Below, in pieces: positions 11,285 to 23,040 of a DNA stretch of 36,043 nucleotides. The stretch is from assembly GCA_018822885.1 (NCBI GenBank), contig JAHJJA010000037.1:1-36043 (forward strand). The letters are read 5' to 3'. The notes beneath the pieces were generated by a model. It did not search any database, was not told where the DNA came from, and worked only from the letters and a program-made list of their open reading frames with translations. How positions within the stretch are numbered: position 1 is the first letter of the stretch; each line of letters starts with the position of its first letter. The translations under genes and the position numbers were made by a program. The DNA comes from Candidatus Omnitrophota bacterium (lineage in GTDB: Bacteria; Omnitrophota; Gorgyraeia; Gygaellales; Profunditerraquicolaceae).

Positions 11285-11357
11285 GCCGGCGTAGCTCAGT
11301 TGGTAGAGCAATTGTTTTGTAAACAATGGGTCGGGGGTTCGATTCCTCTCGCCGGCT
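11285..11357 (+). tRNA. tRNA-Thr (TGT)
   Basis: Acceptor GCCGGCG/CGCCGGC, anticodon arm ATTGT-TTTGTAA-ACAAT, T-arm GGGGGTTCGATTCCTC. No encoded CCA. Confidence 0.92.
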
Positions 11358-11404: not shown

Positions 11405-11491
11405 CTAAAGTCACATGTTTAAATGTTGCACGTATCGATCTTGTGCCTTGTGTTTTGTAACTTGTGACAAATATACATTTTGATATTTAAT

Positions 11492-11774
11492 GGGCAGGTA
11501 CCCAAGTGGCCAAAGGGGGCAGACTGTGTAAACGCAGCGTCCCGCTGAAAAGCAGGATGGAAAAGTAGGTGAATTCAGGGGATCCCTTGGCAAGTTTTGT
11601 CGAGGGGAATCCTGAGCCAAGCCCTGAGTCATTTCAGGGAAGGTGCAGAGACTAAGCGCCTACCGCCTAAAGCTAAAAGCTATGGTGATGAGATAGTCCA
11701 AGCCTCAAGGTAACTTGAGGGCACTTGAAATCTGTTGCACTAGTGCTTCAGAGGTTCGAATCCTCTCCTGCCCA
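11492..11774 (+). tRNA. tRNA-Tyr (GTA), interrupted by an intron (exons 11492-11527 and 11728-11774)
   Basis: Exon 1 GGGCAGGTACCCAAGTGGCCAAAGGGGGCAGACTGT joined to exon 2 AAATCTGTTGCACTAGTGCTTCAGAGGTTCGAATCCTCTCCTGCCCA gives a complete class II tRNA. Acceptor GGGCAGG/CCTGCCC, anticodon loop CTGTAAA with GTA, long variable arm. Confidence 0.93.
11528..11727 (+). ncRNA. Group I intron (IC3-like, similar to cyanobacterial tRNA-Leu introns) in the tRNA-Tyr anticodon loop
   Basis: 5' exon ends in U and the intron ends in G. P1 possible between exon CUGU and intron GCAG. Core blocks AATCCTGAGCCAAGCC (11608-11623), AAGGTGCAGAGACT (11640-11653), AGATAGTCC (~11691-11699). P6-type hairpin CCCTGAgtcattTCAGGG. 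Terminal hairpin CCTCAAG-GTAA-CTTGAGG with a GNRA loop. No internal ORF. Confidence 0.92.
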
Positions 11775-12094: not shown

Positions 12095-12166
12095 GCGGGA
12101 GTAGTTCAGTGGTAGAACACTTGCCTTCCAAGCAAGTCGTCGCGGGTTCGAACCCCGTCTCCCGCT
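12095..12166 (+). tRNA. tRNA-Gly (TCC)
   Basis: Acceptor GCGGGAG/CTCCCGC, anticodon arm CTTGC-CTTCCAA-GCAAG, T-arm GCGGGTTCGAACCCCGT. Confidence 0.93.
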
Positions 12167-12208: not shown

Positions 12209-12589
12209 ATGTCGAATAAATTATTAATTGTTGACGACGAAAAAGATGCCAGGGATTTTTTGGGCAACATCCTGATAAGAGAGGGTTACTTTGTAAAAAC
12301 TGCGGCTTCCGGGGAAGAGGCATTAGAGCTCGTCAAAAAAGAAGATTTTGATGCGGTGCTTCTGGATGTGGTAATGTCAGGTATGTCCGGGCTAGAGGTT
12401 TTGAAAAAGTTAAGAGAAACCAAACCCGATTTAATTGTTATTTTACTTACCGCTATCGGCTATGACCAGAAGATGATCGATAAATGCATGGAAGACGGCT
12501 GCTCCGGGTATATAGGAAAGAGCATCCCTGTTTCTCAGATCATAGCCAGTATTAAATTATTTATCGAATCTAAGAAAAGATCAGGTTAA
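12209..12589 (+). CDS. Stand-alone response-regulator receiver domain (CheY-like)
   Basis: 'KLLIVDDEKDARDFLGNIL', 'DAVLLDVVMSGMSGLEVL', 'VILLTAIG', conserved Lys 'GKSI'. Confidence 0.93.
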   Translation: MSNKLLIVDDEKDARDFLGNILIREGYFVKTAASGEEALELVKKEDFDAVLLDVVMSGMSGLEVLKKLRETKPDLIVILLTAIGYDQKMIDKCMEDGCSGYIGKSIPVSQIIASIKLFIESKKRSG

Positions 12590-12608
12590 CTTATCTAAGG
12601 GGTATTGT

Positions 12609-13358
12609 ATGACTAAAGAATTTCTGCAGCCTGTCCATATTGACGCTTTTGATTTGGATGATGCCTGGTTCCAGTGTTTATCAGCGATACTGGAGAAGGG
12701 GCATGTTTATAAGATAACAAAGGGTAGTTATGAGGGGCAAAAACGCCTCGAATTTGATTTTGTCACTATTCGGGTGAAAAAACCATCCCATCAGATCATC
12801 CCGATAATCCCGGAGGGGATGAGTATTCCGGCTCCGACGGATATGGATTATATTCAAGGTTATCTAAGTTATCTTTTGACCGGGGCTAAGACCGAGACAG
12901 AAGATTACACTTACGGGGAGAGGCTGGTAGACCCGCGGGTGAAAGTAAGGCAGAATGTGGAAGGCAAGGAGATGGTAAAAGAGATGCCCTTAGATGTGAA
13001 TCAGGTCGAAGAGGTGATCAAACTATATAAGGAAAAAGGTTTCGGCACGAATCAGGCGACAATGGAGATCGGCATGCCTTCGGATATAAAACTGGTTGAT
13101 CCCCCATGCCTTAGGATAATAGATACAAGAGTCCGCTATGGAAAGCTGCATTTTATTTTGTATTTTCGTTCTTGGGATCTATGGGGAGGGTTTCCTTCTA
13201 ATCTTGGAGGCCTTCAATTGGTCAAACAATATATGGCTGAAGAGATCGGAGTAGGGGACGGAGAGATCATCGCGGCAAGTAAGGGTCTGCATCTTTATGA
13301 TTATGCATGGGACCTGGCAAAATTAAGGACAAATAAAAACAACCTGAAAATAGAATGA
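12609..13358 (+). CDS. Thymidylate synthase-like (ThyA-fold) protein
   Basis: 'DPPCLRIIDTRVRYGKLHFILYFRSWDLWGGFPSNLGGLQLVKQYMA' resembles the ThyA PC…R-S-D…G-x-P-x-N…LQ catalytic block. 'KGLHLYDYAWD' resembles the HIY segment. Confidence 0.55.
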   Translation: MTKEFLQPVHIDAFDLDDAWFQCLSAILEKGHVYKITKGSYEGQKRLEFDFVTIRVKKPSHQIIPIIPEGMSIPAPTDMDYIQGYLSYLLTGAKTETEDYTYGERLVDPRVKVRQNVEGKEMVKEMPLDVNQVEEVIKLYKEKGFGTNQATMEIGMPSDIKLVDPPCLRIIDTRVRYGKLHFILYFRSWDLWGGFPSNLGGLQLVKQYMAEEIGVGDGEIIAASKGLHLYDYAWDLAKLRTNKNNLKIE

Positions 13359-20867: not shown

Positions 20868-21800
20868 ATGTATAGAAAATGGCTATTTGTTTTAACAGTT
20901 CTTTTGATCTTTGGGGGAAGTAATTTTGCTGCGGAGTTACCGCAGCCGTCCGGCTGGGTAAATGATTTTGCCGGCGTAATAAGCCAGGAATATCGGACAA
21001 AATTAGAAGATTTAGCGCAAGTTCTAGAGAAAAAGACAACAGCGGAGATCTTTGTAGTCACAGTTGACTCTATCGCGCCTTACGACGAAAAGCAAATCGC
21101 GCGAAAGCTCTTTGATAGCTGGAAGCCGGGTAAAAAGGGTAAGGATAACGGAGTTTTAGTGCTTTTGGCAGTAAGAGAAAGGCGCTGGCGTATCGAGACC
21201 GGATACGGCCTTGAAGGCATTCTTCCTGACAGCCTTTGCGGTACTATCGGCCGCAATTATATGGTGCCTCTTTTTAAAGAAGGTAAATACGGAGAGGGTC
21301 TTTATTATGGCGCGGCTGCTATTATCAGATTGGTTGCCCGTGATTCAGGGGTAGAGATAAGCGGATTAAAGGGGTTACCTGTAGAAAAAACTGGGACGGC
21401 TACGCGCGGTTCAAAGATAGTTATCTACTTTTTCGCCGTATTCTTTTTTTATTTATGGAACTTACCGTGGCCTATTTTTATAGGTTTGCCTTTTACTTTA
21501 CTTTTTGCCGGTGTTTTTTATAGCATAGCTCCGCTTGCGGGAATTCTGACAATTTGTTCCTATTGCGCTTCTATGGCAACAAGGTATTTTATTTGGAGGA
21601 ATCTTCCGCTTGAGGGCAGGCCCGGTCTATTAAAGTTGTTTATTTTTGGGCTTCCGTCTCTCGGCGGCTCTGGTAGAGGCCATAATCGGGGAGGCTACTA
21701 TGGTGGTGGATTTGGGGGAGGCTTTGGTGGCGGAGGCGGTGGCTTTGGTGGCGGGGGCGGAGGTTGCGGCGGGGGCGGAGGCGCAGGAGGAGGGTTTTAA
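20868..21800 (+). CDS. TPM-domain (YgcG family) membrane protein with Gly-rich C-terminus
   Basis: Signal peptide, 'GWVNDFAGVISQEYRTKLEDLAQVLEKKTTAEIFVVTVDSI…RRWRIETGYGLEGILPDSLCGTIGRNYMVPLFKEGKYGEGLYYG', then TM segments and an FGGGGGG-type tail. Confidence 0.92.
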   Translation: MYRKWLFVLTVLLIFGGSNFAAELPQPSGWVNDFAGVISQEYRTKLEDLAQVLEKKTTAEIFVVTVDSIAPYDEKQIARKLFDSWKPGKKGKDNGVLVLLAVRERRWRIETGYGLEGILPDSLCGTIGRNYMVPLFKEGKYGEGLYYGAAAIIRLVARDSGVEISGLKGLPVEKTGTATRGSKIVIYFFAVFFFYLWNLPWPIFIGLPFTLLFAGVFYSIAPLAGILTICSYCASMATRYFIWRNLPLEGRPGLLKLFIFGLPSLGGSGRGHNRGGYYGGGFGGGFGGGGGGFGGGGGGCGGGGGAGGGF

Positions 21801-21807
21801 ATAAAAA

Positions 21808-23040
21808 ATGAAATATATAGTTTTAGTTGGTGATGGGATGGCTGATTATCCGGTCAAAGAACTTGATGGCCGTACGCCTTTAGAGGCGGCGCGCACGCCG
21901 AATATGGATCATATTGCACGTTTTGGCTCACTCGGCAGAGTAAAGACAATACCTGAAAAGGCGCAGCCTGGTTCTGATGTCGCGAATATCACGATCTTTG
22001 GTTATGATCCGGATCAATATTATACCGGCCGCGGCCCTTTAGAAGCGGCAAATCTGGGAATAAAGTTAGCAGAGGATGATGTTGCTTTCCGTTGTAATCT
22101 GATCACTGCCACAGGGGATATCCTGACTGATTATAGCGCCGGGCATATCAGTTCCGGAGAAGCGGCTATTCTTATAAAGTTTCTTGAAGAAAATCTCGGC
22201 AGTGATAAATTTAAATTTTATCACGGAGTAAGTTACAGGCATTTGCTATTGGTCAGGGGCGGATGTAAAGAAGGGTTTGATCTATTGAAGTGCACGCCGC
22301 CTCATGATATATCCGGCCAGAGCATTTCTAAAAACCTGCCCAAGGGTGATAATGCTGATATCTTGATAGATTTGATGGAGAAGTCGCGTAAGATCTTGCC
22401 AGAGCAGGAAATTAACCACGTGCGCGTGGACCTGAAAGAGAACCCCGCGAACATGATCTGGTTGTGGGGCCAAGGGAAAAAACCATCGATGCCGACATTC
22501 AGGGAAAAATACGGCTTGCGCGGCAGCGTAATATCGGCGGTCGATCTTATTAAAGGTCTGGGAAGGATCATAGGCCTTAATGTGATCAATGTCCCGGGCG
22601 CGACAGGATATTATGATACTGATTACGAGGGAAAGGCAAATGCCGCGTTGAAATCGCTTCATGATAATGATTTTGTTTTTGTGCATGTTGAGGCGCCTGA
22701 TGAGGCCGGACACAACGGAGACTTGAGAGAGAAGATCGCGGCAATAGAAAGATTCGATCAATTGATCGTTGGTAAAGTGCTTGAGGAATTTAAAAATAAG
22801 AATAATTTCAGGGTATTGGTGCTTCCGGACCATGCGACCCCGGTGTCTGTCAGGACCCATACCCGCGAGCCTGTGTTGTTCGGTATTTTTGGCCAGGATA
22901 TCATAGGAAAGGGGTTTCAGAAATACTGCGAGAAGGAAGCCGAGCATTCAGAGGTGTTTTTTGAGAAAGGCTATGAGCTGATGGATTATTTGATAAACGG
23001 AGAGGATGTTTTAAGTAATCGGGAGAGTAAAGATGCATAA
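21808..23040 (+). CDS. Cofactor-independent phosphoglycerate mutase family / proposed homoserine kinase
   Basis: 'YIVLVGDGMADYPVKELDGRTPLEAARTPNMDHIARFGSLGRVKTIPEKAQPGSDVANITIFGYDP', 'VHVEAPDEAGHNGD', 'VLPDHATPVSVRTHTREPV'. Embedded among threonine biosynthesis genes. Confidence 0.9.
   Translation: MKYIVLVGDGMADYPVKELDGRTPLEAARTPNMDHIARFGSLGRVKTIPEKAQPGSDVANITIFGYDPDQYYTGRGPLEAANLGIKLAEDDVAFRCNLITATGDILTDYSAGHISSGEAAILIKFLEENLGSDKFKFYHGVSYRHLLLVRGGCKEGFDLLKCTPPHDISGQSISKNLPKGDNADILIDLMEKSRKILPEQEINHVRVDLKENPANMIWLWGQGKKPSMPTFREKYGLRGSVISAVDLIKGLGRIIGLNVINVPGATGYYDTDYEGKANAALKSLHDNDFVFVHVEAPDEAGHNGDLREKIAAIERFDQLIVGKVLEEFKNKNNFRVLVLPDHATPVSVRTHTREPVLFGIFGQDIIGKGFQKYCEKEAEHSEVFFEKGYELMDYLINGEDVLSNRESKDA

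Follow-up and report, generated by a model that had tools for sequence, protein, structure and literature searches.

The window analyzed, which is the whole 36,043-nt stretch of DNA from a Candidatus Omnitrophota bacterium, contains two tRNA halves that are separated by 200 nt within positions 11492–11774. When positions 11528–11727 are removed, ARAGORN recognizes the joined exons as a class II tRNA-Tyr(GUA), and it does so likewise for the joined exons of all 44 homologues. ARAGORN gives no call of tRNA-Tyr on the window sequence as it stands; the flanking tRNA-Thr(UGU) and tRNA-Gly(UCC) genes are called. When the window was searched by cmscan, a match to the group I intron model RF00028 was detected on the plus strand with a score of 87.2 bits (gathering threshold, 50 bits) and an E-value of 4.1e-21. 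This match starts at position 11447 only because the model is drawn out over the tRNA together with its leader; the true intron is the segment removed above. An uninterrupted tRNA-Tyr gene reading GGCAGACTGTAAATCTG is found in 23 of the 109 genomes of the same family. The uninterrupted sequence of these relatives spans GGCAGACTGTAAATCTGYTGC, and 12 such genes that were compared over their full length are nearly identical to the joined exons of the window. The empty-site genes of the relatives fix the boundary, indicating that the intron is inserted between U35 and A36. These results confirm that an intron splits tRNA-Tyr(GUA) at U35|A36 in the phylum Omnitrophota, as an earlier note on this DNA had claimed when it placed a group I intron in the anticodon loop of this tRNA. 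The last nucleotide of the 5’ exon is U (U35) and that of the intron is G (position 11727), as also stated there, and the terminal hairpin with a GUAA loop that the note had described corresponds to P9. The features of the locus are summarized in Table 1.

Table 1. Positions of the interrupted tRNA-Tyr gene, the structural elements of its intron and the neighbouring tRNA genes in the window.
Feature	Positions	Strand	Basis or remark
tRNA-Thr(UGU), upstream neighbour, shared by Tyr introns phylum-wide	11285–11357	+	ARAGORN
5’ exon of tRNA-Tyr(GUA), nucleotides 1–35, ending ...CAGACUGU	11492–11527	+	ARAGORN on joined exons; present also in the uninterrupted tRNA-Tyr genes of relatives
P1: CUGU of the 5’ exon (11524–11527) with guide GCAG (11534–11537), U·G wobble at the splice site	11524–11537	+	Invariant in 44/44
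Group I intron, 200 nt, GUAAAC start, ACUUG end	11528–11727	+	RF00028; 44 homologues with the same exon ends
P2 hairpin	11538–11559	+	Up to five pair types per pair
P3: 5’ strand GUAGGUG; 3’ strand CGCCUAC at 11657–11663	11565–11571	+	Compensatory changes U-A/C-G and A-U/G-C
P4-P5 domain; P4 formed by 11575–11580 with 11610–11615	11575–11615	+	P4 nearly invariant; distal P5 covaries
P6 hairpin	11616–11644	+	Covaries; length differs among homologues
P7: 5’ strand GACUA; partner UAGUC at 11694–11698, pseudoknotted	11650–11654	+	CAGAGACUA in 43/44, GAGAUAGUCC in 44/44
P8 hairpin	11664–11687	+	Covaries; two types of P8 sequence occur in the homologues
P9 hairpin with GUAA loop	11702–11722	+	Covaries
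3’ exon of tRNA-Tyr, from A36 through the discriminator base A73, without an encoded CCA	11728–11774	+	Sequence; ARAGORN
tRNA-Gly(UCC), downstream neighbour, shared by most Tyr introns phylum-wide	12095–12166	+	ARAGORN

The insert has the features of a group I intron, which are a match to the covariance model, a U·G pair at P1, a terminal G and a P3–P8 core with a P7 pseudoknot. The CUGU target of P1 corresponds to tRNA positions 32–35, and no convincing P10 pairing with the 3’ exon is identified. Assignment of the intron to the IC3 subgroup is plausible from the similarity of its core to those of tRNA-Leu and tRNA-Ile introns. When 64 consensus pairs are examined in 44 sequences, standard pairs are found in 97.6% of the cells, as compared to 34–46% for slid pairings, and both partners are changed in 297 cells, as compared to 27–61 for slid pairings. 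Compensatory changes are detected in P2, P3, P5, P6, P8 and P9, and the strands of P1 and P7 are essentially invariant. This covariation pattern looks like the result of selection on a folded catalytic RNA. The pre-tRNA folds with a z-score of −5.1 relative to shuffled controls, and this value, together with the pairing and covariation statistics over the 44 sequences, excludes chance as the source of the structure.

The 44 distinct Tyr introns were pooled from searches of the family, the phylum and the species genomes. All of them are from Omnitrophota, are inserted at U35|A36 and are 181–282 nt long (median, 207 nt), and all have ACUGU in the 5’ exon, AAAUCUG in the 3’ exon and CUUG at the intron end. 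None of the 44 introns contains a sizeable ORF, the longest one being 69 aa including the exons; the intron of the window, which is 200 nt long and has no such ORF, does not encode a homing endonuclease. When 85,488 species genomes were scanned with a pattern composed of the intron end and the 3’ exon, 43 matches were obtained. Thirty-nine of these are located in records of Omnitrophota, Omnitrophica, Candidatus Susulua or one bacterium with an intron identical to that of an Omnitrophota genome; two of the 39 are truncated by the end of a contig or by masked bases, and only their matching 3’ part supports their inclusion. The other four matches (Kosmotogaceae, Nitrososphaeraceae, Chloroflexi and Archaeoglobi), about as many as expected by chance, were rejected, since neither a tRNA nor an intron was found on inspection. 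The pattern gives no match in viral contigs, and a search of plasmids gives mostly short matches to the 5’ half of the tRNA and one weak match to an intron core, in Pontibacillus. The upstream tRNA-Thr(UGU) gene, the downstream tRNA-Gly(UCC) gene or both accompany all 21 Tyr introns that are located on longer contigs. The tRNA-Thr/tRNA-Tyr/tRNA-Gly arrangement is one orthologous locus across the phylum, and the same Tyr intron recurs phylum-wide at this locus, so that the case of the window is not unique.

The intron of the window is very probably a functional self-splicing group I intron, most similar to the small IC3 introns of tRNAs, in a single-copy tRNA-Tyr gene. The transcript of the gene would carry the intron within its anticodon loop, and the guide would pair with the 3’ end of the 5’ exon to form P1, such that the U35·G pair is located at the cleavage site. 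A guanosine bound in P7 would attack after U35, and the freed U35 would then attack after the last G of the intron to yield an ordinary tRNA-Tyr. Pairing of the exon halves in the anticodon stem may aid this second step. The locus is best read as undergoing the ordinary two-step splicing of group I introns, because the exon halves can pair (CAGA/UCUG), P1 (CUGU/GCAG) contains the U·G pair and the strands of P7 are conserved. Catalysis, the use of guanosine, splicing in the cell and the mode of spread are what we infer.

To place the Tyr introns among other group I introns, a tree was built from 124 intron cores (128 columns), in which tRNA-Leu(UAA) is sampled by two introns (L295 from Bradyrhizobium and L296 from Mycetohabitans), none of them cyanobacterial, and the Ile outgroup is the Azoarcus sequence, which was only partly checked by similarity to plasmid records. 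The Tyr and Asn introns form one clade as against the fMet, Leu(UAA), Thr(UGU) and Ile introns (support, 100/99.5). A single clade of Tyr introns is not rejected (p-AU 0.72), and Asn sequences are at times nested among Tyr sequences in the free tree. When the 23S, Lys and Arg introns are included, the tree is poorly resolved with its 128 columns. By this comparison, the closest kin of the Tyr introns are the tRNA-Asn(GUU) introns of Omnitrophota, not the tRNA-Leu introns. The Asn introns share the register 35|36, the target CUGU, the guide GCAG and the core with the Tyr introns, but interrupt another tRNA, and many of them contain an HNH-like ORF in the P1 loop. The Tyr intron probably belongs to a phylum-wide lineage that also occupies tRNA-Asn(GUU) through the same CUGU target, and this ORF-less intron would be kept by descent with occasional transfer and loss.

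A different history, in which the intron is functional but is no old resident of the phylum, each lineage having gained it on its own and not long ago from an element in active spread, is rather unlikely. Filled and empty alleles of the site coexist within genus g55 (intron in G070, G071 and G075; empty site in G069, G073 and G074), and the Tyr introns of family f1 are weakly rejected as one clade (p-AU 0.041). These two observations are evidence for transfer or repeated loss, though not decisive, and the Tyr introns lack an endonuclease gene, unlike many Asn and fMet introns, which argues against an actively spreading element. It is improbable that the intron derives from a tRNA-Leu(UAA)-type IC3 intron that moved to a new U|A junction, as the earlier note had proposed. 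The intron shares core motifs with IC3-like tRNA introns, and the tRNA-Leu(UAA) introns of Bradyrhizobium and Mycetohabitans are similarly small, are located in the anticodon loop and have a similar P3–P7 core. However, these two introns are inserted at 34|35 and have another P1 target, and they fall outside the Tyr and Asn clade, as far as 128 columns and two Leu introns, none cyanobacterial, represent the group. The Tyr intron is located at 35|36 and clusters with the Asn introns at U35|U36, its nearest relatives, outside the tRNA-Leu(UAA) lineage. The tRNA-Ile2(CAU) introns of Acidovorax and Burkholderia (PMC8450103) and of Azoarcus are similar to the Tyr intron in the core and the P8 sequence, but differ in host and P1 and are also outside the Tyr and Asn clade. 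The tRNA-fMet introns with an I-Ssp6803I-type endonuclease (Synechocystis and Gloeobacter) are likewise group I introns in the anticodon loop; the fMet introns of Omnitrophota are inserted at 33|34 and represent a lineage distinct from that of the Tyr intron.

The genome of the window is a 1.75 Mb assembly in 168 contigs with a completeness of 91%, and the completeness of its tRNA set was checked by the family search and by the loci. None of its 41 tRNA-like matches is an uninterrupted tRNA-Tyr or tRNA-Asn, so that the search for a second tRNA-Tyr gene that the earlier note had called for gives none in this assembly. In a phylum sample of 392 genomes, the standard intron end is found in 28, the exact uninterrupted 15-mer in 261 and both in none; the probability of zero overlap is about 5e-14 if the two are independent and relatedness is ignored. 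A 29th genome (G403), which matches the intron-end pattern with atypical spacing, was left out of this count. The single-contig genome G294, in which the intron is identical to that of CP070780.1, contains no uninterrupted tRNA-Tyr among its 39 tRNA matches, a list that is perhaps incomplete, as a few other tRNAs are absent too. Dependence of tyrosine decoding on the intron is well supported, although nearly all of the genomes are MAGs, any one of which may lack a contig with a second tRNA-Tyr. Intron-bearing Omnitrophota thus appear to need a ribozyme for the decoding of tyrosine. The intron and its site, as proposed in the earlier note, are confirmed, the dependence that it had considered is well supported, and its account of a Leu-type origin is not supported in its stated form.

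It is very improbable that the locus represents a decaying pseudo-tRNA with a dead intron in a cell that decodes tyrosine with a further tRNA-Tyr that escaped detection. Such a gene could be located on a contig that is missing from the incomplete MAG, but the joined exons form an intact cloverleaf, the 44 sequences have a conserved core with compensatory changes, the exact uninterrupted copy is absent from all 28 intron-bearing genomes, and the single-contig G294 contains the interrupted gene alone. An artefact of assembly or binning, by which a foreign intron was joined to the tRNA, is hardly credible even for a MAG contig like the window, because dozens of Omnitrophota assemblies, obtained independently in different projects, contain the same intron at the same base and in the same tRNA neighbourhood. 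The conserved group I intron in the sole tRNA-Tyr gene is real and almost certainly functional.

Two other tRNA genes of the same genome are interrupted. The tRNA-Asn(GUU) gene, the sole one detected, contains a 243-nt intron at U35|U36 (L002, 1476–1791; G000:C56 near 12445–12760), and the initiator tRNA-fMet(CAU) gene contains a 258-nt intron at U33|C34 (L003, 1464–1795; G000:C32 near 21784–22115), which is too short for the endonuclease gene (PF11645) present in relatives. The fMet introns of these relatives encode a PF11645 protein (E-value, 1.2e-42) that matches PDB 2ost (E-value, 1.6e-46), which we take to be I-Ssp6803I. The RF00028 cut-off is exceeded in 61 of the 109 family genomes and in 185 of the 392 genomes of the phylum sample, about half of them, with rRNA genes among the hosts. 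The hosts in the family are tRNA-Tyr (25 introns), tRNA-Asn (about 32), tRNA-fMet (about 20), tRNA-Lys(UUU) at 33|34 (five) and tRNA-Arg(UCU) at 34|35 (four), and about ten introns are located in or near 23S rRNA, four of these loci being confirmed as 23S by Rfam. A reading of tRNA-Thr at 33|34 as the host of many introns was rejected, the correct one being tRNA-Asn at 35|36. An ORF of 107–138 aa is located in the P1 loop of eight Asn introns (L283, L285, L289, L291, L292, L162, L175 and L181), and the end of the ORF overlaps the guide region. It is termed HNH-like from the pattern CxxC...HH...CxNCHRE alone, and Pfam does not recognize the one such protein that was searched at an E-value of 0.01.

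A more far-reaching reading, which is rather unlikely as a whole, is that a private Omnitrophota lineage with a guide fitting CUGU of tRNA-Tyr and tRNA-Asn has moved between the two more than once. The Tyr copies would have spread either by reverse splicing or with the HNH-like protein of the Asn introns acting in trans, and some genomes, including that of the window, would need ribozymes for their sole tRNA-Tyr, tRNA-Asn and initiator tRNA at once, tying translation to the guanosine supply. The bacterial tRNA hosts of group I introns in the literature consulted are Leu(UAA), fMet, Ile2(CAU) and Arg, with some cyanobacterial claims (PMC3984707, PMC8450103, PMC4033280 and PMC5733544), and the parts of these four papers available to us contain neither Tyr or Asn hosts nor the register 35|36. 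A search of the literature available to us gave no report of tRNA introns in Omnitrophota. A 2025 preprint by Nakagawa et al., which is cited in PMC12641178, concerns, judged by its title, a new tRNA insertion site in Patescibacteria; it deals, as here, with tRNA group I introns in uncultured bacteria, but in another phylum. As an element of a known kind, the Tyr intron occupies a new host gene and a new insertion register, with a priority that is uncertain given this preprint. A little-studied phylum is unusually rich in tRNA introns, which interrupt the Tyr, Asn, fMet, Lys and Arg genes and are often located in an essential gene that was detected in a single copy. Such introns can explain missing tRNAs in Omnitrophota annotations, and ARAGORN missed all three interrupted tRNAs in the genome of the window. 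A single genus in which the site is filled in some genomes and empty in others is a good system for testing the spread of ORF-less introns and whether the host comes to depend on them.

Several other features were observed in these searches. Three Tyr introns (L051, L066 and L135) have a common extra double hairpin (GTCGCCAC...GGCGAC, TGTCCGCCA...TGGCGGAC) between P9 and the 3’ splice site, which spans two host families, f1 and f36. A near-identical palindrome around GTTTTGCTTCGCAAAACGAAGCAG is located in the P6 loops of L003, L068, L126 and L166, which are fMet, Tyr and Asn introns, and it is present in a single copy in the genome of the window. The tRNA-Lys(UUU) introns at 33|34 (L046, L059, L067, L086, L093, L137 and L176) form a separate group with a support of 99, L176 being 809 nt long, and the tRNA-Arg(UCU) introns at 34|35 are L114, L116, L131 and L134. 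Four group I-like matches in a row are located within 23S rRNA at L129 (G025:C1:173654–176330) and about seven in a row at L130 (G014:C5:44271–50716), most of the matches at both loci being below the Rfam cut-off. The plasmid NZ_CP015231.1 of the alphaproteobacterium Tritonibacter mobilis contains an apparent 252-nt group I-like intron, which scores below the Rfam gathering threshold, at U36|A37 of tRNA-Thr(UGU) (L293, 1108–1440). In the genome of the window, an intact tRNA-Pro is adjoined by a second, tRNA-Pro(CGG)-like copy, which is truncated and has a hairpin insert of about 60 nt in the D arm (L042, G000:C21:20250–20470), and two tandem low-scoring tRNA-like copies with 28 bits each are located at L043 (G000:C43:1–360).
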